64,000 nucleotides of DNA from Nicotiana tabacum. Taxonomy: Eukaryota; Streptophyta; Magnoliopsida; Solanales; Solanaceae. This document shows positions 4,050 to 60,191 of this stretch, in pieces (the stretch's first letter is position 1; the number at the start of each line of letters is the position of its first letter). The stretch covers positions 107,024,001-107,088,000 of the forward strand of contig NC_134102.1 of NCBI RefSeq assembly GCF_000715075.1, written 5' to 3'. The translations under genes and the position numbers were made by a program. The notes under the pieces are model-generated. The model was not told the origin of the DNA, ran no database searches, and saw only the letters and a program-made list of their open reading frames with translations.

Positions 4050-4545
4050 TAGACGGAGAATACAAACCATTGAAAGCGTATTTTCCCTATGAGGAGGTAT
4101 CATTTGTAGGAGAAGATATTACCGAGGCATACGATGGTTGGAGGATGTTCTTCGATGGAACATCAAACTTCAAAGAAGTAGGTATCAGAGTTGTCTTAGT
4201 ATCAGAAATTGGACAACACTATTAGGTTTCCGCAAAACTCAAGTTTCCATGCACCAACAATATGGCAGAATATGAGGCCTACATCCTGGGACTTAGATTG
4301 GCCATTGACATGAACATTCAGGAACTGCTGGTAATCGTAGATTCAGATCTTTTAGTGCACCAGGTTCTAGGGGAATAGGCTATGAAGAACACCAAAATAT
4401 TGTAAAATTTGCACTGTGTACAAGAGCTGATCAAGAGGTTCACAAAGATAGAATTCAAAAATGTTCCAAGGATTCAGAATGAGTTCGCAGATGGATTAGC
4501 CACTTTTTCTTCCATGATACAATACCCAGACAAGAATTTCATCGA
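4050..4545 (+). pseudogene. Second (archaeal-type) RNase H of Tat element
   Basis: Tat elements carry an additional RNase H domain between the RT-linked RNase H and integrase. Here it reads WRMFFDGTSN, NNMAEYEAYILGLRLA, LLVIVDSDLLVHQV and NEFADGLATF, so all four acidic positions expected of an active DEDD site are still visible. Stops interrupt it at about 4224, 4377 and 4403. The final part lies in the same open stretch as integrase. It is the clearest evidence for the Tat assignment. Confidence 0.8.
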
Positions 4546-4582
4546 TCCTATCCCAATAGGAATTCATAAGAAACCAACTTAT

Positions 4583-5596
4583 TGTGCTCATGTTGAAGAA
4601 GAGATTGACGGAAATCCGTGGTTCCACAACATCAAAGAGTATTTGGAAAAGGGAGAATACACAGAGAGTGCTACCCATACTAAAAAATGCACGCTTCACA
4701 AATTAGCCAACCATTTCTTTCAAAGTGGAGGAATTCTGTATAAAAGGACTCCTGACCTGGGATTACTGTGGTGTGTCGATGCCAAGGAGGCATCCAGATT
4801 GCTCGAGGAAATACATGCCGGAACTTGCAGACCGCATATGAATGGTTTCGTTTTGGCCAAGAAAATATTAAGAATAGGGTATTTCTGGATTACTATGGAA
4901 ACAGATTGCATCAAGTATGTTCAAAAGTGTCACCAACGCCAGACACATGCTAACATGATACGAGTACTACCCAACGAACTTAATGCAACAAGTTCTCCCT
5001 GGCCTTTCTCCGCTTGGGGTATGGATGTCATCGGACCAATCGAACCCACTGCTTCAAAGGAACATAGGTTCATTCTGGTGGCCATAGACTACTTCACAAA
5101 ATGGGTTGAAGCCACATCTTATAAAGCTGTAACTAAGAAGGTTGTAGCAGATTTTGTTCGAGACCGTATCATTTGTCGATTTAGGGTACCATAGTCAATC
5201 ATTACTGACAATGCCGCCAATCTCAACAGCGATTTGATGAAAGTCATATGTGAAACATTCAAGATCAAGCACCGGAACTCTACAGCATACAGGTCGCAAA
5301 TGAACAGAGCCATAGAAGCCGCCAACAAGAACATCAAGAAGATATTGAGGAAAATGGTAGACAATTACAAACAATGGCATGAGAAGCTACCATTTGCTTT
5401 ACTCAGGTATCGTACCATAGTTCGTACATCAATTGGGGAAACTCCCTATCTACTAGTTTATGCTACTGAAGATGTTATTCCCACCGAAGTGGAAAACCCT
5501 TCCTTAAGAATCATACAAGAAATAGAGCTCAGCGATGCGGAATGGGTTCGGTCACATCATAATAAAATCTTCATTTTCCCTATGGTCAGAAATTGA
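4583..5596 (+). pseudogene. Tat integrase, DDE triad visible but interrupted
   Basis: Integrase would insert the cDNA. The HHCC zinc-binding region spans about 4815-4950 (HAGTCRPH...CIKYVQKCHQRQ); the last Cys of the family pattern reads Arg. Catalytic Asp in WGMDVIGP is near 5025, the second in SIITDN near 5205, the Glu in RAIEAANKN near 5310. A TAG at 5192 separates the first from the second and third. The core then continues open to a TGA at about 5594, where similarity fades. Confidence 0.85.
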
Positions 5597-6111
5597 GGCA
5601 GAGTCTCGGGTTTGCCCGATCTCATCACGTTTGGAACCGCCAAGGAATGTGTTTCCAGAAGTATGCATTTAAATTGGGGTAGAATTTTGAGGAGGTTCCT
5701 CAAAATTTCGAAGCAATGAGGTTACAACATCTCAAACCACGTCATAGTCACCAGTTCATCAAAATTATTTGATCTCGTACATTATCACATATTTCAAACA
5801 ACTGCATTTCTACAAATAATTTGTCAAATGCATGCATGTTCTTCAAAAATTTCATTTCTATGGCAGCCAGATGTTACCCAGGGTGACTCAAGCAGGGCCT
5901 CAAGACAAGAGTAAAGGCGAAACAAGGAATCAAGAGCACGAGCCAACCTTTCCCCTGTAAAACTCCCGATTTTTCTTTGGATGCAGGCACAATAAGCATA
6001 ACAGGAACGTCCAGAAATACATACACACAACAGGATCACTATCTTCATAATGACAAAAGTCGCCAAACACAAGCACATCAAGCTAAGAAATGCTTTATCC
6101 TCTCGCATTTA
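5597..6111 (+). other. Tat 3' untranslated region, non-repetitive part
   Basis: No coding sequence is supported between the end of integrase and the first tandem array. The stretch is AT-rich with scattered stops in all frames. I see no recognisable motif. Confidence 0.5.
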
Positions 6112-6790
6112 GTCATTTCTTTTATTGCATAGGGCTAAGCACTTCCCTCATCATTGCGTAAGGCTAAGCATTGCCTTTATTTGCATGAGACTAAACATTG
6201 TCTCCACTTCTTGCATAGGGCTAAACACTGCCCTCACCCTTGCATAAGGCTAATTATTGCCTTTCCTTGCATGAGGCTAAGCATAGCCTTCATTATTGCA
6301 CTTCTTCCATTATTGCATAAGGCTAAGCACTTCCTTTCCTTCATGAGACTAAGCATTGTCTCCACTCCTTGCATAGGGCTAAACATTACTCTCACCATTG
6401 CATAAGTCTAAGCATTGCCTTTCCTCGCATGAGGCTAAGCACTGCCTCCATTATTGCATAAGGCTAAGCATTGCCTTTCCCGCATGAGACTAAGCATTGT
6501 CTCCACTCCTTGCATAGGGCTAAACACTGCCCTCACCATTGCATAAGGCTAAGAATTGCCTCTCCTTGCATGAGACTAAACACTGTCTACATTCCTTGCA
6601 TGAGGCTAAGCATTGCCTCCATTATTGCATGAGGCTAAGCATTGTCTTCCCTTGCATGTGACTAAACACTATCTCCGCTACGTTGCATAAGACTAAGCAC
6701 TATCTCCCTTCTTCACATAGGACCAAGATTTTCCCTCATCTCATACAAGACTAAGCCTTGTCTTGTCTTATCCTCACATATGATTAAGCA
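6112..6790 (+). repeat. Tandem array of covarying mini-hairpins (Tat 3'UTR)
   Basis: About 19 units with a 26-31 bp period. Each has a core of stem, loop, stem: AGGC-TAAGCATT-GCCT, AGAC-TAAACATT-GTCT or AGGGC-TAAACACT-GCCCT, separated by spacers such as ccattattgcat. The two arms change together while the loop stays TAARCAYT. The last member near 6776-6796 has a completely different stem, CATATGAT/ATCATATG, around TAAGC. Tandem arrays between integrase and the 3' LTR are known for Tat/Ogre elements. The compensatory stems are read directly here. Confidence 0.9.
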
Positions 6791-6839
6791 TCATATGTTT
6801 CCTCTATTAAATGATCGATATCAACACATCTTTGCATTT

Positions 6840-7115
6840 TATGGGCTGAAACATTTCCACATTGTCCGAAGGCATCATAGTCTGAAGGCACCATCCTCAT
6901 AGCTTGAAGACATTATTCCATGGCCTGAGGATCTCTTGAAACTGCACATCATCATTCAAAGGCGTCATAGTCTAGAGGCTCCATCCTCATAGCCCGAGGA
7001 TACCATTTCATGGAATACGAATCCCTTATCATACGCTTCATGCCCCAGGACGTCATGGTCTAAGGACATCATCCTCATTATCCGAAGACAATATTCATGG
7101 TCCGAAGGGAATTTG
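6840..7115 (+). repeat. Second, degenerate tandem array (Tat 3'UTR)
   Basis: Diverged short repeats built on phrases such as CCTCATAGCCCGAGG, CATAGTCTGAAGGC and CATGGTCTAAGGAC, with a longer period of roughly 100 bp. Some copies can pair (TCCTC/GAGGA around ATAGCCC), but the pairing is less regular than in the array just upstream. Confidence 0.7.
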
Positions 7116-7647
7116 CATCATGTTTAAATTTTTGCAATAACCTATATATATTTGCGTGCATCGTGTTTTAAGTTTTTGCAGGTAATGGGAAGCAACCGTT
7201 CTACAAATAGGAGCAATTTTCTCTCCGGTTTCCATTCACAACGTTCACATCCCTGACTATCTCGAACATAACCGATGGCCATTAATTAATTGCCCTTTTT
7301 GTCCCATAACCGCTCAAATACTCGCCTTATATATCCATAACATTCAAAATCGCATACATGGCTCCACCTAAAATGATTTGTTACCTGCGACACTACCCTG
7401 CCCAAAAAAGAACCTTTTGAAACATACAACAACTCTTATAATAACTCCATCAGTTTCATTTTTCGTTGGATCCAGAACTATAGACAACCTGATTCTCGTA
7501 TTACTATGGATATGTAGGCAACTCAAGAACTAAGGTTCGGCCTCAGTTTTTCAAAAATACATCATTCCTCACTCAATTCGGACAAAATTGATCATCATTT
7601 TCTTTATCCGACAACTCTTTCATCATTCCCGGGTAAAGAGGGGCAGC
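7116..7647 (+). other. Tat 3'UTR end and polypurine tract
   Basis: Non-coding sequence leading to the polypurine tract AAAGAGGGGCAGC (about 7635-7647), which primes plus-strand DNA synthesis. It abuts the LTR start TGTTTATACCC. A block at 7478-7545 (cctgattctc, atatgtaggc, aaggttcggcctc) recurs in reverse orientation at 58625-58680, which identifies the second Tat element there. Confidence 0.75.
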
Positions 7648-10190
7648 TGTTTATACCCAATTTTGCCCTCGTATTTTTCAAATAGTATATATACTTTCAA
7701 AATATTAATTTTGATCATTACATAATTTACAAGAGTTATACAACTATTTTCTATAATTTTCCATAATTGTTAGAGCTTTAAAAATTGATTTCTTTGCATT
7801 TAAATTACATGATTATTTATTAATTATCCCTTTAAATTATTTTGAGATAATTTAATCATCTAAATTTATTTTTTTGTATCCACATATAGGTTTCATAATA
7901 TTTTAACTCATTTTACATAATTATATTAGTATTTTTAGGCTATTTACATAATTTTGCAATAATAGCCTATGTGCTACGCATAGTTGCATGTTTTCACATT
8001 AGTTTATGCCAAATAGCATTTTTATATTTTTGTAGTGTTAAGTTATTATTTTCAATCACTTTTTGCAAAATTTATATTTTATTATCTATTAAATAGTTTT
8101 ACAAATTATTTTATTAATAGTTTTCGTGTATTTTAATTTGTAGCCCAATTTTAAGTTACTTTCGGACCAAAATCAAGGCCCAAACACCTGACCCAATACC
8201 CCAAGATCCCCTGGCCCAAACCAAACAACCCTTTTTATTCCAACCAAGTTGGCATCCATTTACTTGACCCGTCCCACTTCCCTTTAATCACGGTCGTTGA
8301 TCTCAGATGATCAACGACCCATAACAATTCCTACCCTTTCCTTATATTCCTTTACTCTGAAACCCTAACCCATTTCCCTAACCCATTTCCCTCACCCAAC
8401 CTCCCTTGCATTCTCTCATCTCCACTCTCACACTAAACCCTAGCCGACCATGGAGATCCCTTCTTATTCTTTCCTTATATGCGTCCATACGCGGCTTTAC
8501 TTATCTTTTCTTGCTATTATTACTCATTTTATGGTAACTTTCGTTACCATTTCACTTATGGCAAGCCATATTCTCACAAATCCGGCTTTGATTCTATGGT
8601 TTTGGGTGCTATTGTGGTTCTATGCACTGGAGAAGAGAAAATATTTCTCGTATATGGTATATCCCTGTTGATTCTGCCATGATTGGGGCTTGTAAATGAT
8701 TTGCCCTAAGTTTGATTCCAACTAGGGTTTGGATTCCGATTTTTTTTATTGGTTCTATTACATATTGCATGCGATATTTTCTTTTCTGATTTAAGTTTAA
8801 TTGATTATTTTCCTTCTTTGTCCGTCTTAATTTGAACACTATATAAACCCCTCCCCAATTTTCCCTTGGGAGACTGGAGACTGAAATTAACTATTGCTAC
8901 TCTCTTATTCTCTCATTTTATATACTATTTTGAAATTTGAGACCTTGGCTAACTAAAACCCAAGGCCACCGGAAATTCGATTGTTGTTTTTTTTCAGTGC
9001 GAGCACTGTCCGGGGTTCACTTGAAACCCTTGGGAACTCTGACGCACTGAGATTTTGGGGTGTTGTTGTTCTTTTGCTATTGACGATTAAAGTAGAGATG
9101 GAAAGTGTTCTTCTTACTAACTTGTCCGTTAATTTGTTACTTGTAAGTACCTTGACTCTTGCAATTCTATTTTTAGTTGTGATCATGACCTGAGTACTAT
9201 GTTTGTTCGAATTTTTCTGAACCTCTGTGATTACAATATGTTGTTGGCTTGTTTGCAATCCTATCTATTTCAAAGCTAGCCTATAGTCTTGTATTCTTTA
9301 GCATCTAAAAATGTTAAAATCCTACACTTGGATATCTGCCCACTGTATACATTTTTCGACCATCTTGAACCTACTTAGTCCACCATGTTTATGCACACAT
9401 GAGTTTCCTATGTATGTTGCTTGCTCATATTCATGTATTGTTCTGAACTTTTGTATTTAAACTTTGGGGTACTTACTCATGTCCAAAATTTGCTCGACTG
9501 TACTTCTCTATGCTAAGTCATTTAAGCATAACTTGCTACTTGATCATGTATGTATTCTAAACCCTTCAGACAAAGCATACTACTTGTGGATCTCAGTCCT
9601 CATTATGGTTGCTTACTTTACTACCATCATGTTCTGTACACCCATATATGCTATTGCTAGGATTGCTCAAGTTTAATGCCTAGGGAATCTTTGATGTGCA
9701 AAACTGAACTTGCTATATGTGATCAATTTGTATTAAACACTTGTTTGCTGACTAATTGTGGTGTTGAGTTTGTGATAATGTTGACCCTGAGCTTCTGTAT
9801 TAGGTTTCTTTAGTAACACCTCTACTTGTCCTGAATTGGTCTACAACTCTTAGTTATGCCCTTCCTCAGCTCCTTGCTTTGTGGATTCATGTTTCCTATA
9901 ACTACTCTGGTGCATCCTGAGAAATCCATGCTTTGAACTTATTTGCCTCACATGTGTGCTCATTGTAAGGTCTTTGTACATGTGTGTCATTTTACCTGTT
10001 AGTTGTCACCCCTAAGGTGACACTTAGAAAACATTGCTGCTGATGATTTTAACAGTGGGAATCCATGTGTCTTTGCGTAAACCCTGAGCTATTTGAATGA
10101 TGTACCTTAGATCCCCATGTTCCTGTTATTCGCTAATAGATCAACAAGGCAATTGTTTTCATGTTTGGGGCCTCGTATTCTCACTCATCG
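7648..10190 (+). mobile_element. Tat 3' LTR, 3'-truncated
   Basis: It starts with TGTTTATACCCAATTTTGCC right after the polypurine tract. It is AT-rich for the first 1.2 kb and then carries a core promoter. Short open frames here (8450-8670, 8980-9190, 9464-9676) show no recognisable protein and are not called. The 3' end is missing: near 10190 the sequence changes to a minus-strand LTR of another family, so the boundary is approximate. Confidence 0.7.
8839..8852 (+). promoter_or_regulatory. Putative TATA box of the Tat LTR
   Basis: CTATATAAACCCC about 1.19 kb into the LTR, followed by a pyrimidine-rich run, is a good plant TATA box in the position expected for the U3/R boundary. No transcript evidence is available. 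Confidence 0.5.
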
Positions 10191-12264
10191 TGCTCAATAC
10201 TTAGTGCACTCAGTAACTCAGTACTATACAGGGCAGATCCAGCCCTAACATAATAACTGCTAGCAACTGCGCTCACTGGGGTATGTGTGGACTCTAGTGG
10301 AGCTCCATCAACCCAAGCCCTATAATCCGCACGGACAACTCACGTGCTATAGTATCAATATCTAGATCCACATGGACAACTTACATGCTATAGTATTAAT
10401 ATTTGGATCTGCACGGACAACTCACGTGCTATAGTATCAATATCTAGATCCGCACGGACAACTCACGTGTTGCACGGACAACTCACGTGCTATAGTATCA
10501 ATATTTGGATCCGCACGGACAAATCACGTGATATAGTATCAATATCTAGATCTGCACAGATAACTCACGTGCTATAGTATTAGTATCCTCACAATCATGC
10601 CATCGACCTCACTCAGTCATCAATTTGTCCAGTCTCTTGGGCTCACAAAACTCATGTTAAGCAGTCCAAATAAAAGATGTGAGATGTGAAAATACATAAT
10701 AACAGAGACTGGGATATGATATGTAATGATGAATTCGACTGAGTACATAACTGCAATTAAACAAATAACTCAACAGCAAGGAACGACCACTGTGGGTCGC
10801 AATGATACCAACATATAGCCTAAACATGTTTTCTAGCATAAATCACCACTCAAGTGCTCTAACACATAGTGTACAGTACAAGTATTCAGATAAGACAGCT
10901 ACAAAGTTCCATGGAATCGACTAAATCACCATTTCAACAGTGCACGCCCATCACCTAGCATGCGCGTCACCTCAACATCAATCACATAATATGTAAGTTA
11001 GGGTTTTATACCCCCAGCACTAAGTTTAGAAGTGTTACTTACCTCTAACAAGCCAAACAATGCTCTAAAATTTCCATCTCACACGTACTGACCTGCAGAC
11101 GACTCGAAACCCGAGGAATTTCTTGAAAAACCCACAAAATATCGACACAAACCAAGCTCTCAAAGTACAAAAATGAAATAATACTCTAGCCCTCATTTAT
11201 AAAGTACAAATTTTGTTCTCCCAATGTGCTGACCACACATGTTTTTTGTGGTACGCACATTCCAGGTTCCGCGGCCGCAATCCAAATTGTGCGGTCGCAC
11301 TTCAGTAGTGACTACACTACTAGGTTTTAGTAAATTGGCCATAGCTTTAGGTACAAATGTCCCAATGATGAATAGTTTACCTTTCTGAAAACTATACTCA
11401 AAAGGATACAACTTTCGTTTTTGGATTATCTCCAAATTCCTTGTATATTAAAAGATATAAGTTTCCGAAGTCAGAGCATCAACCTGCAGATTCTCCTTTC
11501 TTTGGCTGCAAAGAGCATTTCCTATGCGGTCCGCACATTTCCTCTGCAGTCCGCACATGAGGCTTTGCCTCAGCACTCCAAAATGTGCCCTCCGCACTTT
11601 ACTCGCTCCAGAACTTCATCAAAGTGCTAAAATGCCCAAACTTGTTCAAAACTCATCTGAAACACACCCAGGATCACATTGTGGACTTACTCAAAGACTC
11701 AAATCACAATAACAATATCGAAACGATGAATCACAATCAAATCGAATTTAATGAACTTTGAATCTTCAACTTCCAAAACTCGCGCTGAAACAAATCATAT
11801 CAACCTGGAATGAACTCAAATTTGGCACATAATTCCCAAGTGACATAACGAATCTATTCCAATTTCCGGAACCACAATTTGAATCTGATATCATCAAAGT
11901 CATCTCTCGGTCAAACTTATAAACTTTCCAAACCTTCAAATTTCTAACTTTCGCCAATTAGCGTCGAAACCTTCTAGAAACATCCAAATACAAATTCCGG
12001 CATACATCCTAGTCCAAAATCACTATTTGGACCTAACAGAGCCATCAAAACTCCAATCTGAGATAGAATACTAAAAAGTCAAACTTGGTCAACTCTTCCA
12101 ACTTAAAGCTTCAATCATGAAATTCATCCTTCCAAATCAATTCTGAATAACCTGAACCAAAACGGATTATTCACACAAGTCATAATACATCATACATAGC
12201 TACTCATGCCCTCAAACTATCAAGCAAAATGCAAGTGCTTAAAACGACCGATCGGGTCGTTACA
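10190..12264 (-). mobile_element. LTR fragment, family D (minus strand)
   Basis: The right edge ends ...GGGTCGTTACA, which on the minus strand is an intact LTR start (TGTAACGACCCGATC). The left edge lacks the expected TGTCACG end and begins inside the LTR near 10190. It matches the organisation of the solo LTR at 54832-57791: a tandem CACGTG block, a conserved splice-donor-like GAG|GTAAGTA (minus, at 11042), and a GC-rich block near 11225-11605. It directly abuts a 5'-truncated LTR at 12265. Confidence 0.75.
10327..10587 (-). repeat. Tandem block with CACGTG hairpins in LTR
   Basis: About six units near 41 bp (some partial) built on GCACGGACAACTCACGTGC plus a TATAGTATCAATATC spacer. Each unit contains the palindrome CACGTG and can fold as GCACG-N9-CGTGC. 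The same block is at 55568-55728 in the related solo LTR. Confidence 0.8.
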
Positions 12265-13930
12265 AGTATTTTGTGGCACGAGATTTCTGTCGTGCGGTTG
12301 TTATTGTGGCACGAAGTTTCTGCCGTACGGTTGTTATTATGGAATGAGGTTTTTGATGCACAGTTGTTATTGTGGCATGAGGTTTCTGTAGTACGGTTGG
12401 TATTGTGGCACGAGGTTATTGTCATGCGATTGTTATTGTGGCACGAAGTTTCTATCATGCGGTTGTTATTGTGGCACGAGGTTTTTAATGTGTAGTTGTT
12501 ATTGTACAAGAGGTGTCTGTCGTGCGGTTGTTATTGTGGTACCAGGTTTTTGTCATATGGTTGTTATTGTGGCATGAGGTTTCTGTCGTGCGGTTGTTAT
12601 TGTAGCACCAGGTTTCTACTAGGCGGTGGTTATTGTGGCACGAGGTTTATGTCGTGCGGTTGTTATTGTTTGCACGAGGTTTCTGTCGTGCCATTAATTC
12701 ATTTTATGATTTGAAACTATGATGCGGTACCTCGGGAGGGCTCTGTTATCATTTCCCCTTTTTCTGTGCACTTGTCTTTGATTGTTGTTTTCCTTAGCAC
12801 ACTGCTAATTGTTTTACTTCGTGTTGCTCTATTGCTTAGTTATATGTAGCAAAGCTTGTTGTGCTTGTCGTTACATCCACTTAATTGTTGTCTTATTTAC
12901 ACTGTATATTTATTGGTGATCATTTCTTATGTACGATTCCTTAACTCCACTCTTAATTGTGGACTTGAATTGTGGTAGAACACTTGCACAAGCATACCCG
13001 TGGATGAATCAACCATAGCGGTTTAAGGAGATGAGTCCTGATGTTATTGACCATCAAATGTTCTCTTGTCTACTTGCCTTCTGTATGAGAGTTGTCCTCT
13101 TGGCACGTGAGTCGTCCGTGCGGTTATGGATTGAAATGTGGGCACAAGGTGCCAAGTGATTAGGGTTCAATAATTGGGACCTGTGAGTCATAATTATAAG
13201 GTTTGGTACCTCGTAGAAATTCTTTAACAAATATGGTATGAGAGTGGTTGTTCTTATTGAGTTATTGCTGGTTTTATTGTATTTAGTTTCATTTACTTAG
13301 ACTGTGTTCTGTTTACTCTACAATATTATTACTCGACTGCTTCCTATTAAATATTGTTGTTATTAGTGTATCATTGCAAGTATTAATCCGTGTTCCTTAC
13401 CATGCTTAACTTTATATTAATATGGTTTCCTCTGTTAGTTCACCTTCACACTTGTGCAGGTTGTTTAGTCCGGCAGGTGTCTTGACTATCCCTCGTCACT
13501 ACTCACTGAGGATAGTCTTGATACTTACTGGGTACCATTGTGGTGTACTTATACTACGCTTTTGCACATTTTGTGCAGATCGAGGTGTCACGGTTGTTGT
13601 TGATTATTAGATAGCTGGTCGAGCTGTGCAGACTCAATGTAGACCTGTCATCACATTCGCAGGCCTAGGAGTCACCCTCTAATTTTGTATTTGTACTATT
13701 TAACTTCCATTCCAAACAGTTGTATTTAGGGATTTTCCAAGTAAACTCAGTAGAGCTTATGACTTGTACTACCGGTTGTGGGAATTGTAAGTTGTGTAAT
13801 AAGGTTTCTATTTCATATTTATCAATTATTGGTTAAATGCTTTTATTAATTTGGTAAGTGTTAGGCTTACCTAGTCTTAGAGACTAGGTGTTGTCACCAT
13901 ATTCTACGGGGGAAATTTTGGTTCGTGACA
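12265..13930 (+). repeat. 5' LTR of the pol-less element, 5'-truncated
   Basis: It begins inside a tandem block and ends at TTCGTGACA next to the PBS. It aligns along its length with the last 1.5 kb of the LTR at 16630-20328, so about 2.2 kb of its start is missing. It contains the conserved LTR region with the acceptor-like hairpin TTGCACATTTTGTGCAG ending at 13578. Confidence 0.82.
12270..12695 (+). repeat. 33-bp tandem block in 5' LTR
   Basis: About twelve diverged units of a 33-bp repeat built on GTGCGGTTGTTATTGTGGCA and CGAGGTTTCTGTC. The better copies fold as GCACGA-N8-TCGTGC. The 3' LTR has about six cleaner copies at 18872-19080. Because 33 is a multiple of 3 the block is open in several frames; these frames are not genes. 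Confidence 0.85.
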
Positions 13931-18871: not shown

Positions 18872-19080
18872 GTCTGTCGTGCGGTTGTTATTGTGGCACG
18901 AGGTTTCTGTCGTGCGGTTGTTATTGTGGCACGAGGTTTCTATCGTGCGGTTGTTATTATGGCACGAGATTTTTGTCGTGCGGTTGTTATTGTGGCACGA
19001 GGATTCTGTCATGCGGTTGTTATTGTTGTACGAGATTTCTGCCGTACGGTTGTTATTTTTTTTTTCACGAGGTTTCTGTC
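18872..19080 (+). repeat. 33-bp tandem block in 3' LTR
   Basis: About six copies of the repeat at 12270-12695, better preserved. Consensus hairpin GCACGA-N8-TCGTGC in each unit. Confidence 0.88.
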
Positions 19081-41968: not shown

Positions 41969-42154
41969 TCTAGGTTCATAGGTATTATGAGTCACAAGCA
42001 GGTTTAGTAGAGTCTTGCGGATCGGTACGGAGACGTCTGTACTTATCTTCGAGAGGCTATAGAATTGTTAGGACATATTCACTTCTTTGATTCCTTATCG
42101 TGCGTAATTGTTGACTTCAAAATTTTAAATCATTGCCTTTCTATTCTCTCACAA

Positions 42155-43440
42155 ATGGTGAGGACACGCACAATTGGATCCGATGATCAGACATCTGCGC
42201 CCCCTGTTGGAGCAGCAAGAGGCCGGGGTCAGGGCAGAGGCCGAGCCAAAGGCCAAGGAAGATCACGTGGTGCAGCCAGAGCACCTGCACGAGCTACTGA
42301 ACTAGAGCCACCAGTAGCTCCAGTTGGAGAGCAGGCATCTGAGACGCTTGTTACTACTCCTGCACTTCAGGAGATCCTTGCCCAATTTTTGAGCATGTTT
42401 GGCACTTTAGCTCAGGCAGGGTTAATTCCATTTGCTCTTGCCGCATCTCAAGCCGGGGAAGGAGCACAGACTCCCACCGCCCGTACTCCAGAACCACGGG
42501 CCCAAGTTGACCATGCCCCAAAGGTTATACCAGTGCAGCCAGTTGTCCCAGTTCGGCCTGAGATTAGGACAGCAGTTTCAGAGGGGGAGAAGCTGAGGCT
42601 CGAGAGGTACAAAAAGTACCACCCTCCCACTTTCAGTGACTTAGCTTCAGAGGATGCTCGGGGTTTTCTGGAGGAATGTCACTGTATCCTTCATACTATG
42701 GGTATTGTGGATTCTAGTGGGGTTTCTTTCACGGTATTCTAGTTTAGAGGATCAGCCTACTAGTGGTGGCGGGCATATGGGTTGGATAGTCCCGCTGAGG
42801 CATCTTCACTCACTTGGACTCAATTTTCAGATATGTTCTTAAGGGAGTATGTTCCTCAGAGTCTTAGAGATGCATGTCGCACAGAGTTTGAGTAGCTGCG
42901 CTAGGGTTCTATGACCGTGTCAGAGTATGTGGTCCGATTCAGTGATTTGGCGAGGCATGCACCATCCTTGGTTACTACTGTTCGAGAGCGGGTTCGCAGA
43001 TTTATTGAGGGTCTCCACCCTAATATCACATACAGTATGGCCCGAGAGCTAGAGATAGACATCACATACCAACAGGTGGTGTCAATTGCTAGGAGATTGG
43101 AAGGTATGTGGATCCGGGAGAGGGAAGAGAGGGAAGCTAAGAGACCTCAAGATTCTGGCACATATAATAATTCCCATGCCCTAGTTGCAGCCTGTCATGG
43201 TAGAGGTTATGTGAGCCGTCCTATTCATTCAGCACTTCCAGCTTCAAGTTTTATTCCGGCTACTCCCAGACCTCAGGTTCCATATTATGCATCGCCAGTG
43301 TCTACTGTACCTCCTGTAAGGGGTGCTTTCAGCGGGAAGTCTAGTCGATCAGGCCCGAGCCAGTCCCAGCAGCCACGTCCTCCGAGGGGCTTGTTTTGAG
43401 TGTGGTGACACTCGTCATATTATGAGAGATTCCCCCAGAT
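42155..43440 (+). pseudogene. Chromovirus gag
   Basis: Start at ATGGTGAGGACACGC, shared with the other gag copies; an upstream in-frame ATG at 42065 lies before it and is not conserved. Glycine/arginine-rich N-terminus (GRGQGRGRAKGQGRSRGAAR), then KYHPPTFSDLASEDARGFLEEC and the capsid core. TAG stops occur near 42740, 42761, 42895 and 42903, then the frame is open from 42911 to 43399 (MTVSEYVVRFSDLARHAPSLV). A frame break leads into a zinc knuckle near 43384-43430, CFECGDTRHIMRDS, whose last Cys is Ser. Confidence 0.85.
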
Positions 43441-43601
43441 TTAGGAGGGGTGCACCTCCATAGATTTCTCAGGCCCCACCTATTCCACAGGGGCCTCAGG
43501 CTTCTTAGGCCATGATTACTACACCAGTTGCCACTCCACCCGCACACCCATCTAAAGGTGGAGGTCGGGCAGGTAGAGGTCGCCCTAGAGGGGGAGGCTA
43601 G

Positions 43602-45344
43602 GCCAAATATTATGCCCTTCCTGCTAGGATAGAGGCTGTTGCATCCAATTCTGTTATCACAGGTATTATTCGGGTCTGTCATAGAGATGCATCAATCTTA
43701 TTTGATTCAGGCTCCACTTATTCTTATGTGTCATCTTATTTTGCCCCGTATTTTGGCGTATCACGTGATTCTTTGGGTTTTTCTGTTTACGTATCTACAC
43801 CCGTGGGTGAATCTGTTATTGTAGACCACGTGTATTGGTCGTGTTTAATTGTTATCAGTGGTTTTGAGACCAGAGCTAATTTATTATTGCTCAGTATGGT
43901 GGATTTCGATATTATTTTGGGCATCGACTGGTTGTCGCCCTATCACGCTATTCTTGATTGCTCCACCAAGATGGTGACATTGGCTATGCCAGGTCTACCG
44001 TGGTTAGAGTGGAGAGGTACCTCGGATCATGTTCCTAGCAGGGTTGTTTTATTTCTTAAAGCTCAACGAATGATTGAGAAGGGGAGTGATGCGTATCTGG
44101 CCTATGTGAGAGATGTTAGTGTTGATACTCCTACTGTGGAGTTAGTTCCTGTAGTAAGAGATTTTCCTGATGTATTTCTAGTGGATCTTCCGGGTATGCC
44201 ACCCGACAGGGATATTGACTTTGGCATTGATTTGTTATTGGGCACTCAGCCCATTTCTATTCCACCATATCGCATGGCCCCAATAGAGTTGAAAGAATTA
44301 AAAGAACAGTTACATGAATTGCTTGATAAGGGCTTCATTCGGCCCAGTGTATCACCTTGGGGTGCTCATGTCTTATTTGTGAAGAAGAAAGATGGTTCTA
44401 TGCAGATGTGTATTGATTACCGCCAGCTGAACAAGGTTACAGTGAAGAACAAGTATCCATTGCCACGTATTGATGACCTATTTGATCAGCTTCAGAGCGC
44501 CAGAGTAATTTCTATGATCGACTTGCGTTTAAGCTATCATCAGTTTAAGATTCGGGAGCCAGATATCCCGAAGACTTCTTTTAGGACTCGGTATGGTCAT
44601 TATGAGTTCCTTGTAATGTCATTTGGGCTAACCAACGCCCCAGCATCATTTATGCACTTAATGAATAGTGTATTTCAGCCCTATCTTGATTCTTTCGTCA
44701 TTGTATTTATTGATGACATTCTGGTGTATTCTCGGAGTCGGGAAGATCATGAGCAGCACCTGAGGACTGTGCTTCAGACTTTGAGAGAAAAGAAGTTATA
44801 TGTAAAATTTTCAAAGTGTGAAATCTGGCTTGATTTAGTAGGAGGTTTGGGTCATATAGTTTCGTGCGAGGGAATCAAGGTAGATCCAAAGAAGATTGAA
44901 GCAGTGCAGAATTGGTCCAGACCGTCCTTAGTTACGAAAATCCGGAGTTTCCTTTTGGCAGGGTATTATCGCCGATTTGTAAAGGGTTTCTCTTTTATTG
45001 CTGCATCTATGACCAAATTGACCCAGAAGGGTGCTCCGTTCAGGTGGACCGAGGAATGTGAGGAGAGCTTCCAAATGCTCAAGATAGCTTTGACTACAGC
45101 CCCAATATTGGTATTACCTACAGGTTCAGGTTCTTATACTGTGTATTGTGACAGGTCGCGTATTGGTCTCAGTGCAGTGTTGATGCAAGATGGTAAGGTG
45201 ATTGCCTACGCGTCCAGACAGTTAAAGGTACATGAGAAAAATTATCCGGTCCATGACTATGAGTTAGCAGCTATTGTTTATGCCTCGAAGATTTGGCGGC
45301 ATTATTTGTACGGTGTCCATTGTGAGGTCTACACCGATCACTAG
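43602..45344 (+). pseudogene. Chromovirus protease, RT and RNase H (open part of pol)
   Basis: Open from after a TAG at 43599 to a TAG at 45342, about 580 residues. Protease active site [15 protein letters not shown] near 43701; an [15 protein letters not shown] block follows near 43920. RT has [19 protein letters not shown], catalytic Asp in [11 protein letters not shown] and the IDD box in [12 protein letters not shown] (about 44703), all readable. RNase H reads [23 protein letters not shown] and EVYTDH, keeping its acidic residues. The longest uninterrupted enzyme region in the window, but it lacks an intact gag upstream and integrase downstream. Confidence 0.88.
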
Positions 45345-47113
45345 AGTCTACAACATCTGCATAAACAGAAGGATCTTAATTTGCGGCAGCGGAGATGGTT
45401 GGATTTGCTTAAGGATTATGATATCACCATTCTCTATCATCCTGGGAAGGCCAATGGAGTGGTCGATGCCTTGAGTCGTAAGGCGGAGAGTTTTGGGCAG
45501 CTTAGCATATTTACCGGTAGCAGAGAGGCCTTTAGCCTTGGATGTTCAGGCCTTGGCCAACCAGTTTGTTAGATTGGATGTTTTCGAGCCGAGCCGAGTT
45601 TTGGCTTGTGTGGTTTCTCAGTCTTCTCTTTATGATCATATCAGGGAGCGTCAGTACGATGACCCCCATCTTCTTGTCCTTAAGGATACAATTCAGCACG
45701 GTGACACCAAAGAAGTCATTATTAGAGATGACAGTGTATTACGGATGCAGGGCAAGCTATGTGTGCCTAATGTAGATGGTTTGCGTGAGTTGATTCTCCA
45801 AGAGGCTCAAAGTTTGCGGTACTCCATTCATCCGGGTGATACAAAGATGTATCACGACCTGAGACAGCACTATTGGTGGAGGCGGATGAAGAAAGACATA
45901 GTGGAATATGTAGCTCGATGCCTAAATTGCCAACAAGTGAAATATGAGCATCAACGACCGGGTGGCTTGCTTCAGAAGTAAGAGATTCCAGAATGGAAAT
46001 GGGAGCGGATCACTATGGATTTCATTGTTGGACTTCCACGAACTCAGCGGAAGTTTGATGCAGTTTGGGTGATTGTGGATAGGTTGATCAAGTCAGCTCA
46101 TTTCGTTTTTATGATGACTACCTACTCTTCCGAGCAGTTGGCTCGAATCTATATTCGCGAGATTTGAAGACTTCATGGCGTACCGGAATCTATCATATCT
46201 GACCAGGGTACACAGTTTACCTCACGGTTTTGGAGGACTGTACAGCGAGAGTTGGGTACTCGTGTGGAGTTGAGTACAACATTTCACCCTCAGACAGACG
46301 GACAGTCCAAACGCACTATTCAGATACTGGAGGATATGCTTCGTGCATGTGTGATAGATTTTGGGGGTGCTTGGGATCCGTTCTTACCACTTGCGGAGTT
46401 TACTTACAACAACAGTTATTAGTCGAGCATTCAGATGGCTCCGTATGAAGCCTTGTATGGTAGGCGGTGCCGGTCTCCAGTGGGTTGGTTCGAACCGGGC
46501 GAGGCTAGGCTATTGGGTGCAGACTTGGTTCAGGATGCCCTGGAAAAGGTTAAGTTTATTCAGGATCCACTTCGTACAGCCCAATCTAGACAGAAGCGTT
46601 ATACGGATCGGAAGGTTCGTGATGTTGCATTCATGGTTGGTGAGCGGGTCCTGCTCTGGGTTTCGCCTATGAAGGGGATGATGAGGTTCGAGAAGAAGGG
46701 CAAGTTGAGCCCTACGTATATTGGACCTTTTGAGATTCTTGAGAGAGTTGGAGAGGTGGCTTACAGACTTGCACTACCACCTAGTCTCTCTGTAGTTCAT
46801 CCGGTATTCCATGTTTCTATGCTTCGAAAATATCACGGCGATCTGTCTCATGTGCTAGACTTTAGTTCGGTTCAGTTGGACAAGGATCTATCTTATGTTG
46901 AGGAACCAGTGGCTATTTTAGATAGGCAGGTTCGAAAGCTGAGGTCAAAGAACATTGCTTCCATGAAGGTTCGGTGGAGGGGTCATCCGGTCAAGGAGGA
47001 GACTTGGGAGACCGAGCGTGATATGCGCAGCTATTATCCACAGTTATTTACCAGCTCAGGTACTTTTTCTACCTCCGTTCGAGGACAAACGTTTGTTTTA
47101 GAGGTGGAGAATA
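45345..47113 (+). pseudogene. Chromovirus integrase with chromodomain-like end
   Basis: After the stop and a frame break, the zinc region is open at 45493-45981 (EAQSLRYSIHPG, CLNCQQVKYEHQ; the first His of the usual HHCC reads Gln). TAA at 45979 and TGA at 46165 interrupt the core. Catalytic Asp in ITMDFIVGLP and in [10 protein letters not shown] are present. Exactly 35 residues later the position of the catalytic Glu is Lys (AAA, 46309-46311, in DGQSKRTIQ). From 46435 the frame is open to the LTR: GPF/Y-type core (KLSPTYIGPFEIL) and chromodomain-like segment (YVEEPVAILDRQVRKLRS...WRGHPVKEETWETE). Confidence 0.85.
47093..47113 (+). promoter_or_regulatory. Polypurine tract of the chromovirus
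   Basis: TTTTAGAGGTGGAGAATA just before the 3' LTR start TAATGACCC. It overlaps the end of the pol frame. Confidence 0.75.
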
Positions 47114-50100
47114 TAATGACCCAAAATATCATCTTTAAAGTTAATAATTAATTATGTGTTCTAAGACCTCGAAAAGCACTTATTTATCATTACTCGACTT
47201 GCGTGCACAGTCCGTAAAATTTTCTGGAAAGCTTTTATGTGAAAAATGGATTAAAATGTGAATTAGAACTTTAAAACTCAACTGAGTTATCTTTGGTCAA
47301 CATTTTGAGCAAACAGACTCAGATCAGGGTTTTGACAGTTTCAATAGGTCCGTATTGTGATTTGGGACTTGGGCGTATGCCCGGAATCAAATTCCGAGGT
47401 CCCTAGCCCGAGATATGGAATTTTGATAAAAAAATTAAAGGTTTTAAAAGCTTAAGTCAAATAGTGACCGGATGTCGAATTATGTGCAAATGACCCCGAA
47501 ATAGAATTTTGACGATTCCAACAGTTCTGTATAGTGATTTTGGACTTAGGAGCGTGATCGGAATTTTATTTGGAAGTCGGTAGTGAAATTAGGCTTGAAA
47601 TGGCTAAAATAGAAATTTAAGTTTGGAAGTTTGACCGGGTAGTTGACTTTTTGATATCGGGGTCAGAATCCAGTTCCAAAAATTTTCATAGCTCCGTTAT
47701 GTCATTTATGACTTGTATGCAAATTTGTGGTCAATCAAACTTGATTTTATAGGTTTCAGCATCGAATGTAGAAGTTGAAATTTCTTAGTTTCATTAAGCT
47801 TGAATTGGGGTATGATTCTTGTTTTTAGTGTTGTTTGATATGATTAGCATCGACTAAGTTCGTATGATGTTTTAGGACTTATTGGTATATTTGGCTGAGG
47901 TCCCGAGAGCCTCGGGTGAGTTTCGGATGGTTGACGGATAAAACATTGGACTTAAAAAGCTACCGCAATTTTTCTCTTCTGCTGGATATTCTGGGCTATG
48001 ATCGAGCCCAAGATCGAGCCCATATATAGAGCCCAGGGTCGACGGCCAGGGTCAAAGCCATAGACGAGGCTCAGGATTGATGCTATGATCGATACCATGG
48101 TCGAAGGCCCAGGCTCGATGCCATGATTGAGGCTATGATCGAAGGCCCAGGCTTGATGCCAGGATCGAGGCCATGATCGAAGGACCAGGCTCGATGCCAT
48201 AATCGAGGCCATGACCGAGGTCCAGGCTCGAGCCTGTGATCGAAGCGACGATCGAGGCTTAGGCTCGAGGGCCATGATCGGCGCCACGATCGAGGCCCAG
48301 TTCTGAAGGCTGCCTGGGCAGATTATAAAAGAGGGCATTCGTCCCATTCGACATTTTTAACAAACTGGAGCTTGAGCAGAGGCAATGTTTGATAGATTTT
48401 CAAGGAAAGACATTGGGGTAAGTGATTCTAACTCGGATTTGGTCTATATACACAAATATATCATTGTTTTCACCATTTAATTAGTGTTTTGAGATTGAAA
48501 TTCGAGAAATTTTTGAAATCTCATAGAAATGATTTTTGGAGATTTCAGTATCTATTCAGAGTCGGATTTGAGTGAAACTGGTATGGTTGACTCGTAATTA
48601 AATGGGTTGTCAGATTTTATGAGTTTCGCCGGATTCCGAGATGTGGGCCCCACGGGCGATATTTGAGCTAATTTCGAATTTTATTGAAAGTATTTTCTTA
48701 TGAAATTTATTCCTATAATTTTTGTTGACGGTATCGAATTGTTTATGACTAGATACGAGTCGATCGGAATCGAAAAATCGAGGAAAAAGCATACTACTTG
48801 GTTAAATTGGAGCAAGTCGAGGTAAGTGACTTGTCTAACCTTGTGTGGAGGAAATTTCCCCTAGAATTGATATTAATGTGATTATTGAAATGTGTTGAAA
48901 GTCGTGTAAATGAGGTGACGAGTGTGTATACGGGCTAAATGTGAAAGATTATATTTTTAAATTGTGTAGATCACTATTGCGCATTAATTAAACTATTTTA
49001 TTCTGATATATTCTTCATCATTGATTTAATATTTATATTTTAAAGTTACTTGACCTTTTCCTGCTAATTGTTTTACCTGTTTAGTTAAAACTTGGTTTCT
49101 TTTATTCTGTGCATTATTTGAAGTTGACATTTTTAAATTTGGTATTGAAGCAACGTATTAAAGATTTTAAAATATTATTTTGCTGAATTATTTATTCCTG
49201 AATATTTTTATAAGATTTTCGTACTCATTGTGATGGAGCCGTGAGCTCTTTATTGTTTAAAAATATTATTGGTGATTTATGTTGGCATGAGCCATGAGCT
49301 CTTTATTGTAAAAAAATATTGTTGTTGAAGTATTTTGGCAAGTTAAATTATTTGAGCACTTGAGGTGCAAATTGTGATATATTGTGATGTTGATACGCAT
49401 ATAGTGGCATAAGGTCTGGGTATTGAAACGCATGCGGTGAGATAAGGGTAGCTTGATATGCGTGGCTAGTAGGGGGAACTACTAGAAGTCATGCGGTGTG
49501 ATAAGGATGGCTAAAACGCGGGATGCTATTTCGAAAAAAATATTTTCTTTAAAATAAATTGTGAAGGCTCCCGCGGTAAGATAAGGAAATAAATTGATTT
49601 ATGGCCGCAGTTGCCTTTGATTATTTGTTGTGATTTTCTTAAAGTTGAAAGAAATTCTGTTTTGATTCCATGAGATATTATTTGCCATTATTTTGTGTAA
49701 TTATATGCTGACATGCTACTTGATCCATTTCTATTGTCATTTTATTTTATTATATTGTTAATTATTTTACCATGCAATTATTATTTTCCAGTAAGGCCTG
49801 ACCTGACCTCGTTATTACTCTACCAAAGTTAGGCTTGTCACTTACTGGGTACCGCCGTGGTGTACTCATACTACGCTTCTGCACATCTTTTTGTGCAGAT
49901 TCAGGTACTTCCTATCAGACCAGGCATCAGTGAACTAGCCGTACGCGGAGACTTCAAGGTATATCTGCCAGCGTCTGTAGACCTCAGAGTCCCCTTCTAT
50001 CCTTATTATGTTGTTTTCCTTATTTCCTTTAGATTCCGATGTATAGAGACACTTAGAATAAAATCCTAGAAGCTTGTGACTTATTTCTACCGGGTTCTGG

Positions 50101-54831: not shown

Positions 54832-57791
54832 TGTCACGACCCAAACTAACCCTGTCGTGATGGCGCCTATCGTGGTACTAGGCAAGCCGACATTTCCAAG
54901 ACTCTTTCAAAATTTAACATAAGTGAATTAAGACATTTAAAATATCCGGAGTTTTTCACAAATACGAGGTAAAGGCCAAATAAGCCCGACATCGGGGTGT
55001 CACTAAGTCATGAGCATCTAGATAACCAAACTAATATAACCAGTGTCTAAGTATCAATTCAAGACAGAAAGAAATATATAGAAGGAGAGACAAGGCCCTG
55101 CGGACGCTGGCAGCTACCTCGTAGTCTCCGGTACTCGATCCTCCCGAACTCAACGACCTCCGTAATCAAATACACCTGGATCTGCACATGAAGTGCAGAG
55201 TGCAGCATGAGTACAACCAACTCAGCAAGTAACAGAAATAAATAAGGAACTGAGAAAAAATGACGAGCTATACAGTACAATTCATTTTAAAAGTTTTCAG
55301 CAAAGAGTGAGCGTGCTTTCAAATCCTGTGGTATAAGTCAAAACAGTTCGCGCTCATGTAAGACAGATAAGAATCTTTCATAAATTTTACAACAACAACA
55401 GATAACAACCAAGTGCAACAATAAATAAAGCAGGTACAGCCTCTCAAGGCAGCAGTCACTCAACCCATCTCAACCTCACACTCTCGGCTCTCAGCCCTCA
55501 ATACACACTCTCAATAGGTACCTGTGCTCACTGGGGGTGTTTAGACTCATGAGGTGCTCCAACAGCCCAAGCGCTATAAGCACGGATAACTCACGTGTTG
55601 CACAGATAACTCACATGCTAAAATATCATATCTGGATCCGCACAAATAACTCACGTGATGCACGGACAACTCACGTGCCATAGTATAAATATAAGGATCC
55701 GTACGGACAACTCACGTGCCATAGAACAATACCTCACAACCAGGCCTTCGGCCTTACTCAGTCATGAACCTCTCTAGTCTCATAGCTCTCAATAAAGAAA
55801 GAAAAAGCAACCCAAATCAAAGTGTTACAGTATATCATCAGGGAAAAACAAATAAAAGAGACTGAGGTAAACATGTACAAGAATCACTATGACTGAGTAT
55901 AACTACCATGAACGGAATATAGCCTAAGAATGACTTCTAACATGAAAGGCAGTCAAGTTCTAATAAAACTAAGAATGCATATAAACACAAATAAAGGCTA
56001 TTAGACTTCACAGTCTCCCGGGACGGACAAAGTCTCAATCCCCCACGGTGTACAGCCACACGCCCGTTACCTAGCATGGGTGCCACCTCCAAACAGTCAT
56101 ATTATACCAAACTCCGGGTTTCATATACTCAAGACCAGATTTAAAAATGTTACTTACCTTAACAGCGTAAAAATCATACTCCGGAATGCTCTTACCCCTC
56201 GATTCGGCCTCCAAATATTCTGAATCTATTCACAATCAGTACAATACCATCAGTATACGCTAATGGAATGAATTACACAAGAAAAACTATCAAATTAGCC
56301 CTAAACCCGAAATTGGCTCAACCCGACCCCCGGGCCCACGTCTCAAAATCTGACAAAATTTACAAAACTAGGAAGCTCATTTACTCACGAGTCCATACAT
56401 ACAAAATTTATCAAAATCCGACATCGTTTGATCCCTCAAATCCTTAAATTAAACTCTCCAAAATCGCAAGCCCTAACCCCTCATTTTCACTAATTACATG
56501 ATTAAACAACGAAAAATCATCATACATACGAGTATTAGGGCTCAAGCAACTTACCTCACTGATAGCCCTTGAATCACCCTTCAAAAATCACTCCAAAAGC
56601 TCCAAAACCCGACTTGAAAATGGTGGAAATGAATTAAATTCGCGAAGGGTTCTATTTATGGTTTCTGCCCAGGCTTCTCGCTCCTGCGGACAATTTCTCG
56701 CTTCTGCGCCACCGCACTTGCAGTCCAAATAATCGCACCTGCGTAAGTCACTTAAATGCCCAGACTCCGCACCTGCGCTCTATTTCCGCATCTGCGACCA
56801 CGCAGGTGCGGAAAATACCTCGCACCTGCGGCCACTGCCTAACTTCCTCACTTCCGCTTCTACGTTACCTATCCGCATCTGCGGACTCGCAGATGCGACC
56901 TATCCTACGCACCTGCGGACCCAGCCTACCTCGACATTGTCCGCACCTGCGACCTCTTGTGCGCTTCTACGGCCTCACAGGTGCGGGAACTTCATCGCAC
57001 CTGTGCCTTCTGCCCAGCTCCTCTAACCTCGCATCTGTGACATCCCGCTCGCTTTTGCTTTCTCGCACCTACGATGAGACATTCGCATGTGCTATTATGA
57101 CAGCTGAGTTCCAACTTCAGCAATCCTCCAATATCCAAACGTGCTCCGTTAATCACGCGAAATTACCCCGAGGCCCTTGGGACTTCGACCAAAAATACCA
57201 ACAAGTCATATATCAACATACAAACTTAATCGAACCTTTGAATCACTCAAAACAACATCAAATTACCAAATTACTCTCGGATTCAATCCTAAGAACTTCT
57301 AAACTTTCAAATTCGACATCCGATGCCGAAACCAACCAAACCACGTCCGAATGGCCTCAAATGTTATACACACGTCACAAATGACACTACGAACCTACTC
57401 CAACTTCCGAAATTGCATTCCGACCCCGATATCAATTTTTCCACTGCCTACCAAAAATTTGCCAAATTTTCAATTTCGACAATTCAAGCCTAATTCTACC
57501 CCGCACCTCCAAATCACATTCCGGACGCGCTCCTAAGTCCAAAATTAACTAACGAAGCTAATGGAACCATCAGAATTAGATTCCGAGATCATTTACACAT
57601 AGGTCAAAATACGATTGACTTTTCAACTTAAGCTTCTACTTTAGAGACTAAGTGTCTCATTCCACTCCGAAACCACTCCGGACCCGAACCAACTAACCCG
57701 GTATATCATAATATAGCTTAAAATTATAAAAAAAAATAGAAATGGGAGAAACGGGGCTATAACTCCCGAAACGACCGACCGGGTCGTTACA
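54832..57791 (-). mobile_element. Solo LTR, family D (complete, 2.96 kb)
   Basis: Plus-strand edges TGTCACGACCC and GGGTCGTTACA are intact LTR ends. Flanks GTGTT (54827-54831) and GTATT (57792-57796) look like a 5-bp duplication with one change. It sits at the junction of an older tandem repeat of about 40 bp. Inside (minus strand): a CGCACCTGCGG block (56690-57075), a TATA-like CATAAATAGA (56660-56651), donor at 56554, the CACGTG tandem block (55568-55728) and an acceptor hairpin CTGCACTTCATGTGCAG (55198-55182). Solo LTRs form by recombination between the two LTRs of an element. Confidence 0.88.
55568..55728 (-). repeat. CACGTG hairpin tandem block in solo LTR
   Basis: Three to five irregular units of the repeat seen at 10327-10587, with GCACGGACAACTCACGTGC cores and CACGTG palindromes. 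Confidence 0.75.
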
Positions 57792-58179: not shown

Positions 58180-58344
<165 letters not shown>

Positions 58345-59269
58345 ATTACTACTCTAAGAATATGAGTATTTTTGTGCTTTCTTTTAAATATAAAACTTAT
58401 TAAGAGTAAGATAAAAGTTTAAATATTAAGATTAAATCTAAAAGAAATATTTACACTAAAATAGTATAGAATTTGGGTGGAGTCAAAAATTAGTTGTTCA
58501 CAGCATGTCTCTCTTTGCTTGGAAATATAAAGAGTTTTCAGGCAAAGAAAATGAACAAGGTTACTAATTTTTGACCTCATTATTGTTTAAAAAGGAAAAA
58601 AAAGATAAAAGAAAACGATGTGACCGAGCCTTGGTTTTAGGCAGCCTACATATCTCGGGTCATAAGGGAATCAGGTCACGTGTAGTTCAAGAGGAAAAAG
58701 AGTGATGGAGTATGCTTAGATGGAGAGTCCATTGAAGTTCTGTCGAGGTTCTGATCCGTGGTTCCTACTATTACATCAAAATGAAAAGAAGATTACATAC
58801 TCTTGAAATCTAAGAGTTACAAAATTCCTATCTTAATGCCATTTGAAGTCTTGTCTTGATTCTTGACTTGCTTCCCCCATTGACTTTAGACTGTAACTTG
58901 ATCCTCTCGATGCAACAGACTATGAAATATTCTCACAGCTTGTTCCTTGATCAGATGATAAGAGGAAGGATTTTGAGACTCTATGTCTCTGCATGCATAT
59001 ATTTTGTCAAAGCTGGTTGCGGCTGGTATTTGAGATCAGACGTTCCACTTTCTATGGCGAGAGCTTGAATCTTATTTTTGCACATCCAATCTGTACTTTG
59101 CAGAAAAACCTGCAAGCCATCAGAAACAAACAAAGCGAACAAAATTTTTCTGCCCCAGTTTGCACTAGAAAATTTTTGTGAGTTATTGAAAATACATTAA
59201 ACTATCTTTGCTATTGCAGACTAAAGAATTGAAAAATACACGAGTTTCTTCTTCTTTTTTTTAAATAAT

Positions 59270-60190: not shown

Positions 60191-60191
60191 C

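Follow-up and report, generated by a model that had tools for sequence, protein, structure and literature searches.

Paired differences between block-copied hairpin-forming units in a tandem array of a Tat-like Ty3/gypsy retrotransposon of tobacco

Tandem arrays between pol and the 3' LTR have been described for retrotransposons of the Tat lineage, such as Ogre and Retand (accessible portions of PMC11963269, PMC7004042 and PMC6317226), and a reading of the present locus from its sequence alone (the sequence-only reading) was correct in treating such arrays as known; Macas et al. 2009 is cited in the parts of this literature available to us. Like the array analyzed here, those in the accessible texts lie downstream of pol, are built of short, family-specific units and vary in copy number. 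The words hairpin, stem, inverted and secondary structure are absent from the available text of PMC11963269, as are hairpin, palindrom, dyad and secondary structure from that of PMC7004042, and covarying hairpins in Tat arrays were not found in the titles and abstracts of a literature lying mostly outside subscription journals. Arrays of this type are known, and the feature by which the present array goes beyond them, hairpin-forming units that differ by paired changes in their arms, was not found described.

Several other systems offer points of comparison. The array resembles higher-order satellites and minisatellites in its alternating blocks of unit types, with periods of 86, 141 and 158 bp in the window copy (Tandem Repeats Finder), and its family shows a local expansion on one chromosome, as satellite repeats do; unlike ordinary higher-order repeats, the hairpin part of its units differs between types at paired positions. 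Template switching both makes and keeps hairpins (PMC8794818, in its accessible part), and the hairpins described there share with this array the occurrence of paired changes and, in one terminal unit, what looks like a perfect repair, whereas the 40 arrays of sample 1 contain no inverted loops and the type differences are single transitions. The units are also like structured RNAs of Rfam in forming a stable small stem-loop with a constant loop, but identity with an Rfam family was rejected, as none reaches its gathering score in positions 5400-9000.

The array lies in a window of 64,000 nucleotides of Nicotiana tabacum (contig NC_134102.1, positions 107,024,001 to 107,088,000, forward strand), to which the positions given here refer. 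Upstream of it, a plus-strand pol frame at 4409-5194 contains an RNase H-like (RVT_3) tail (24.3 bits, cut-off 21.6; residues 4-33) followed in the same frame by an integrase zinc-binding (H2C2) domain (residues 123-180) whose 22.7 bits lie below the cut-off of 25.5, and frames resembling reverse transcriptase and RNase H, recognized by their similarity to those of a chromovirus elsewhere in the window, lie further upstream. A chromovirus-like element at 42065-47151 has protease, reverse transcriptase, RNase H, integrase and chromodomain frames. In the Tat lineage (Ogre/Retand), a second RNase H (aRH) is located between RH and integrase (PMC6317226, in its accessible part); the RVT_3 match would correspond to this aRH and, with a putative second RNase H in that place, the pol appears to fit the Tat lineage of Ty3/gypsy elements. 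The array starts ~0.5 kb past the last long pol frame (5593) and belongs to a plus-strand stretch at 5000-8400 that is common, by similarity, to most of 39 other genomic copies, with similarity picking up again at 8700-9200. Retand elements carry an antisense frame with a Transposase_28 domain downstream of pol. Between 5591 and 9300 of the window the stop-to-stop pieces are short, the longest antisense one being 103 codons. A coding repeat was rejected on the grounds that the 86-bp block period is not a multiple of three and that frames are only short. Viral relatives were also rejected: none of five pattern matches in viral contigs was confirmed, a further search gave none, and no relatives of the array were found in phages.

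By dyad list, unit scan and type assignment, the main array occupies 6131-6766 on the plus strand and contains 22 hairpin-forming units by a position-weight scan; with one further, terminal unit it extends to 6798. The array itself was correctly perceived from sequence alone, and the count of about 19 units made then was too low. The units were also described then as 26-31 bp long with short arms around a TAARCAYT loop, and this agrees with the observed spacing of 26-31 bp, except for a single 46-bp gap near 6300 that corresponds to a damaged unit. Dyads with stems of 4-9 bp are found from 6131 to 6798, mostly flanking TAARCAYT, and all five pairs of a 5-bp stem around this motif are present in 11 of the 22 units, as counted by eye. 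If the stems AAGGC/GCCTT, GAGAC/GTCTC, AGGGC/GCCCT, GAGGC/GCCTC and AAGAC/GTCTT are called types A, B, C, D and E, respectively, 21 of the 22 units can be typed, in the order C A B C A A A B C A D A B C A B D B B B E. The dyad list and a comparison of copies place the next-to-last unit, with a 7-bp stem (ACAAGAC TAAGCCTT GTCTTGT), at 6745-6766 and the terminal unit, with a 9-bp stem (ACATATGAT/ATCATATGT) and a 5-nt loop, at 6776-6798, both on the plus strand. Degenerate, CATCCTCATAGCYYGARGA-like repeats visible in the sequence downstream (6810-7130, plus strand) contain a single 6-bp dyad, at 6983-7001, and show no array-wide hairpin.

Copies of the array were sought in 3,996,098,646 bases of genome sequence on 700 contigs. 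The array as query gave 69 matching stretches among the best 40 scored of 4,446 candidates, and sample 1 comprises 40 places from these best-scored candidates, including the window copy, with 1,068 units; in the remaining 142 kb of sample 1 sequence the unit scan gave 8 matches. Sample 2 was obtained with a 1.5-kb flank downstream of the array in one copy, not with the array itself, and consists of 20 places picked, from 40 scored of 8,496, for a match start near the array end and for spread. The array was present in all 20, with 11-27 units each and 424 in total. Units scoring <12 were left out of the covariation test with a phylogenetic null, and units scoring <15 were left out of the analyses of r2 and type order, doubles at pairs 1 and 3, the column shuffle, doubles beyond types and the sample 2 ranking; type counts after the score cut-off refer to 1,021 units of sample 1 and 404 of sample 2.

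The genome search also gave observations on relatives of the array with other arrangements. On contig C4, 20 exact copies of the unit variant GAGCCTAAGCATTGTCTC lie at 33,548,877-33,586,332, at spacings that recur at roughly 515, 830-860 and 1,260-1,375 bp, with two more copies 170-180 kb before; this appears to be the element's array grown into a satellite block. Among the matches listed, GAGAC/GTCTC units recur every 62-64 bp at C1:13,128,419-13,128,622 and C1:19,238,916-19,239,432, apparently a different block order of the same family.

Watson-Crick combinations among the 1,068 units of 40 copies exceed those expected for independent arms at pair 2 (888 vs 528), pair 4 (964 vs 804) and pair 5 (837 vs 501), with no excess at pairs 1 (821 vs 816) and 3 (983 vs 980) and none or barely any at pairs 6-8. 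These same three combinations (-2/+2, -4/+4 and -5/+5) are the strongest of 325 column pairs in sample 1, and the top three are identical in sample 2, where 404 units were ranked without a null and the order is 2, 5, 4. The r2 values within pairs 2, 4 and 5 are 0.61, 0.64 and 0.46, whereas loop positions L4 and L7, which lie between the paired sites and are at least as variable, do not exceed an r2 of 0.04 with any tested column. The coordinated changes of the arms reported by the sequence-only reading is therefore real and goes beyond linkage. That reading had also suggested a comparison with a phylogeny-aware null, for which the changes of each column were scattered over the unit tree in 60 replicates. 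Pairs 2, 4 and 5 of sample 1 score 304, 190 and 159 against null means of their own that are near zero, with SD near 50, but the largest null value averages 330, so none of the stem pairs is significant family-wise. In addition, a single dyad per unit is not rare by chance, since two unit strings of the array gave p values of 0.36 and 0.96 against shuffles.

The origin of this signal is evident from the stems themselves. Of the perfect stems, 504 of 522 (sample 1) and 194 of 196 (sample 2) belong to types A to D; new paired stems beyond them number 18 in 1,021 units and 2 in 404 units, respectively, and consist of AAGAC/GTCTT, the type of the next-to-last unit (14 cases, sample 1), plus six further stems with one case each. 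Neighbouring units are of like type in 129 of 981 cases, compared with 273 expected, indicating that type order is non-random and alternating. Unit types are thus repeated in blocks, as in a higher-order minisatellite, and nearly all of the covariation rests on four old unit types copied in alternating blocks. Arms that vary between units and stay complementary, as first described, do reflect real paired differences, and the variants prove to be four types plus decay; the situation named at that time as one that would refute the reading, block copying of a small set of ancestral unit types, largely describes the data.

What distinguishes the types is nevertheless informative. In the majority units of the four types, the left flank GCAT is identical and the loop is identical except for L7, and when types are assigned by one arm all remaining differences up to +5 fall in pairs 2, 4 and 5 with pairing kept, a rule that holds in each type's majority unit whichever arm assigns the type. 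Five paired columns with three variable pairs were reached in 0 of 100,000 column shuffles, in a test that is not blind to the choice of the four types from the commonest arm pairs; still, about three compensated changes appear to have separated the types by the time the family spread. These changes, at pairs 2, 4 and 5, are all A-U/G-C exchanges, which would readily be given by stepwise change under selection on the stem, and which hairpin-templated repair or luck can also give.

Changes that arose after the types were formed present a different picture. Same-branch double changes on the unit tree number 0 or 1 per stem pair, where 1.2-3.7 are expected. At pairs 1 and 3, which were tested within types because no type changes them, doubles show no excess (10 vs 9.5 and 2 vs 1.3 expected), although Watson-Crick pairing is seen in 9 of the 10 pair 1 doubles. 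Beyond the types, with units resembling the next-to-last unit left out, 6 of 98 doubles are compensated, compared with 3.8 expected; as doubles of all kinds are themselves more frequent than expected (98 vs 47.6), the share of compensated ones shows no increase. Compensation that goes on in independent copies is thus not supported. Stem and loop columns change about equally often on the unit tree (means of ~39 and ~40 changes per column), so the sampled copies give no sign of constraint on the stem. One-sided G.U states have no advantage over A.C (59 vs 60 at pair 2, 56 vs 109 at pair 5); changes from paired states at pairs 2-5 yield 35 G.U, 22 A.C and 19 other states on internal branches and 42, 42 and 65 at the tips, and repeated transitions could also produce the lean towards G.U on internal branches.

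Decay is also seen at the end of the array, alongside some observations that point the other way. Four terminal units were compared in 36 copies, 4 of 40 with >40% gaps having been left out, and their one-sided changes break a pair in 89 cases, restore one in 37 and do neither in 14, with doubles that are paired-to-paired in 4 cases and other in 6. At pair 1 of one of these units the 36 copies include 20 with C-G, 8 with C.A and 7 with T-A, of which T-A is a compensated state reached through C.A. The pattern GAGRC-TAARCAYT-GYCTC occurs 17,070 times genome-wide (reversed control, 0). Pair 2 transversions on the 5' side only number 229 genome-wide, those on the 3' side are estimated at ~208 from 4 of 329 units in 60 copies, and both sides are changed in 8 cases (5 T-A, 1 C-G, 1 T.G and 1 C.A; 6 paired), compared with ~2.8 in an expectation that uses the estimated 3'-side count. 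Block copying does not call for such an excess, which may hint at compensation. Together with the pair 1 doubles within types and the paired-to-paired doubles of the terminal units, these paired transversions are small signs against a negative reading, and copies since insertion mostly decay, with no detectable upkeep of their stems.

The ends of the array behave differently from its body. The end stem CATATGAT/ATCATATG singled out by the sequence-only reading does form nine pairs at 6776-6798, but it is complete in the window copy alone, 1 of 40 in sample 1, where one copy was unscorable and the next best state is seven pairs in 2 copies; none of the 17 copies of sample 2 that could be scored has it in full. 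The commonest state of the terminal unit in the family has two adjacent mismatches mid-stem, and every change that separates the window unit from this state raises pairing, including the conversion of both mismatches to pairs. The 9-bp stem reads like hairpin-templated repair, a local event and not a conserved feature. The 7-bp stem of the next-to-last unit is kept more widely, with seven pairs in 16 and six pairs in 14 of 40 copies.

In folding predictions, sense RNA of the array outperforms 20 of 20 shuffles (z -3.6) and antisense RNA 19 of 20 (z -1.8). Predicted energies for single hairpins of the four types are -5.7 to -8.2 kcal/mol for sense RNA and lie between -2.0 and -3.8 kcal/mol for DNA. 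The arms of a unit pair fully with each other (5/5) in 51% of 1,021 units, whereas a 3' arm pairs fully with the 5' arm of the next unit in 6.9% of 943 cases; the alternation of types therefore favours local folding, perhaps only as an incidental effect of the block repeat. A tentative and rather doubtful proposal is that the array is, or was, an RNA platform in the active element, with many hairpins that display one constant loop, stems that change only in pairs, and unlike types placed side by side so that units fold on themselves.

Taken with the block structure, these properties are best explained by a higher-order minisatellite downstream of pol in a Tat-like Ty3/gypsy retrotransposon, built from four unit types of old origin, all capable of folding into a 5-bp hairpin with TAARCAYT as its constant loop, which were multiplied in alternating blocks before the element carried the array to thousands of places. 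About three compensated changes, all between A-U and G-C, would have preceded the spread of the family, most likely because selection acting on RNA of the element, active at that time, maintained the hairpin; copies would decay after insertion. A block-copy history combined with real compensation between types is considered probable, if well short of assured, and the fact that three compensated events are few counts against it. As to how the types arose, stem selection is given a little less than an even chance; copying plus luck, or a cause at the level of DNA, is a lesser possibility, and hairpin-templated repair a slightly slimmer one. A folded form that is selected or otherwise preserved, as first suggested, is thus partly supported, by the compensation between types, and is not supported as regards renewal in the sampled copies.

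Paired changes can also arise without any RNA function if, during DNA replication or reverse transcription, a nascent strand folds back and one arm is copied from the other so that mismatches are repaired. The pairing-raising changes of the window's terminal unit have the multi-mismatch footprint described in the accessible part of PMC8794818, and six of eight pair 2 transversion doubles are paired, five of them as T-A. However, 40 arrays contain 736 forward loops and no inverted ones, so the interstrand footprint is absent; moreover, the three differences between types are single-pair transitions and not multi-base repairs, doubles show no excess at pairs 1 and 3, and one repaired-looking unit in 40 copies is a weak basis, which together make template switching an unlikely source of the pattern as a whole.

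The window contains other arrays with dyads. At 59260-60200, units of 60 or 102 bp carry AGGG(9)CCCT dyads (191 units from 11 copies) and fall into two types with a T-A/C-G difference at pair 5; these types pass the column shuffle (123/30,000), but columns that do not pair show covariation at least as strong, and the array was rejected as a replicate of the covariation. GCACG(A)...(T)CGTGC dyads with loops of 8-9 nt occur at 12271-12691, 18873-19057, 63292-63557, 10325-10587 and 55580-55718 in units of 33, 39, 41 and 60 bp, and GTACG/CGTAC, in one unit at 19028, is a paired change relative to them. Units of 49 bp at 60784-61081 have gttgc GGCGT gcaac dyads in four places, and a (TA)79 microsatellite lies at 58185-58342. 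A general excess of hairpins in tandem arrays was rejected for the clusters analyzed, a small and biased material in which p is <0.05 in 4 of 16.

These arrays bear on the proposal that structure was never selected, and that a lucky ancestral dyad acquired three lucky or neutral matching changes and was then duplicated in blocks. Units of this length often contain a dyad of this size, the changes most to be expected as a plant element decays are transitions on both sides of a pair, and the array at 59260-60200 also has one paired type difference together with non-pairing columns that covary more. Copying plus chance is nevertheless improbable, a shade more so than template switching, as no column shuffle reached the pairing seen between the types and as stem pairs outrank every non-pairing column in two samples. 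Selection that still acts, with the hairpins serving now as an RNA platform for packaging, export, stability or protein binding and covariation being renewed, would be consistent with the good predicted folding of the sense strand, the constant loop, an alternation of types that keeps arms off the next unit, and the small excesses of paired doubles in terminal units and among pair 2 transversions; the scarcity of new paired stems and the lack of excess double changes on the unit tree make it quite unlikely, although dead copies are uninformative on present selection in either direction. Least probable is a double-stranded DNA site read by a dimeric protein of host or element, with some 13 bp between its half-sites, since these half-sites vary by type around a constant TAARCAYT spacer, the reverse of what a half-site reader needs, even though dyads with 8-9-nt loops occur in several arrays of the window that are unrelated and the best dyad has p <0.05 in 4 of 16 array clusters, one of these four being AT-rich.

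For the preferred reading, of block copying with compensation between types, the analysis illustrates that a four-type block repeat can mimic rich covariation if its units are counted singly. In addition, the origin and use of hypervariable Tat arrays, which are seeds of plant satellites, are called unknown in the accessible part of PMC11963269, and the paired differences between types provide a testable handle on whether such arrays began as structured RNA or whether hairpins help to make and reshape them.
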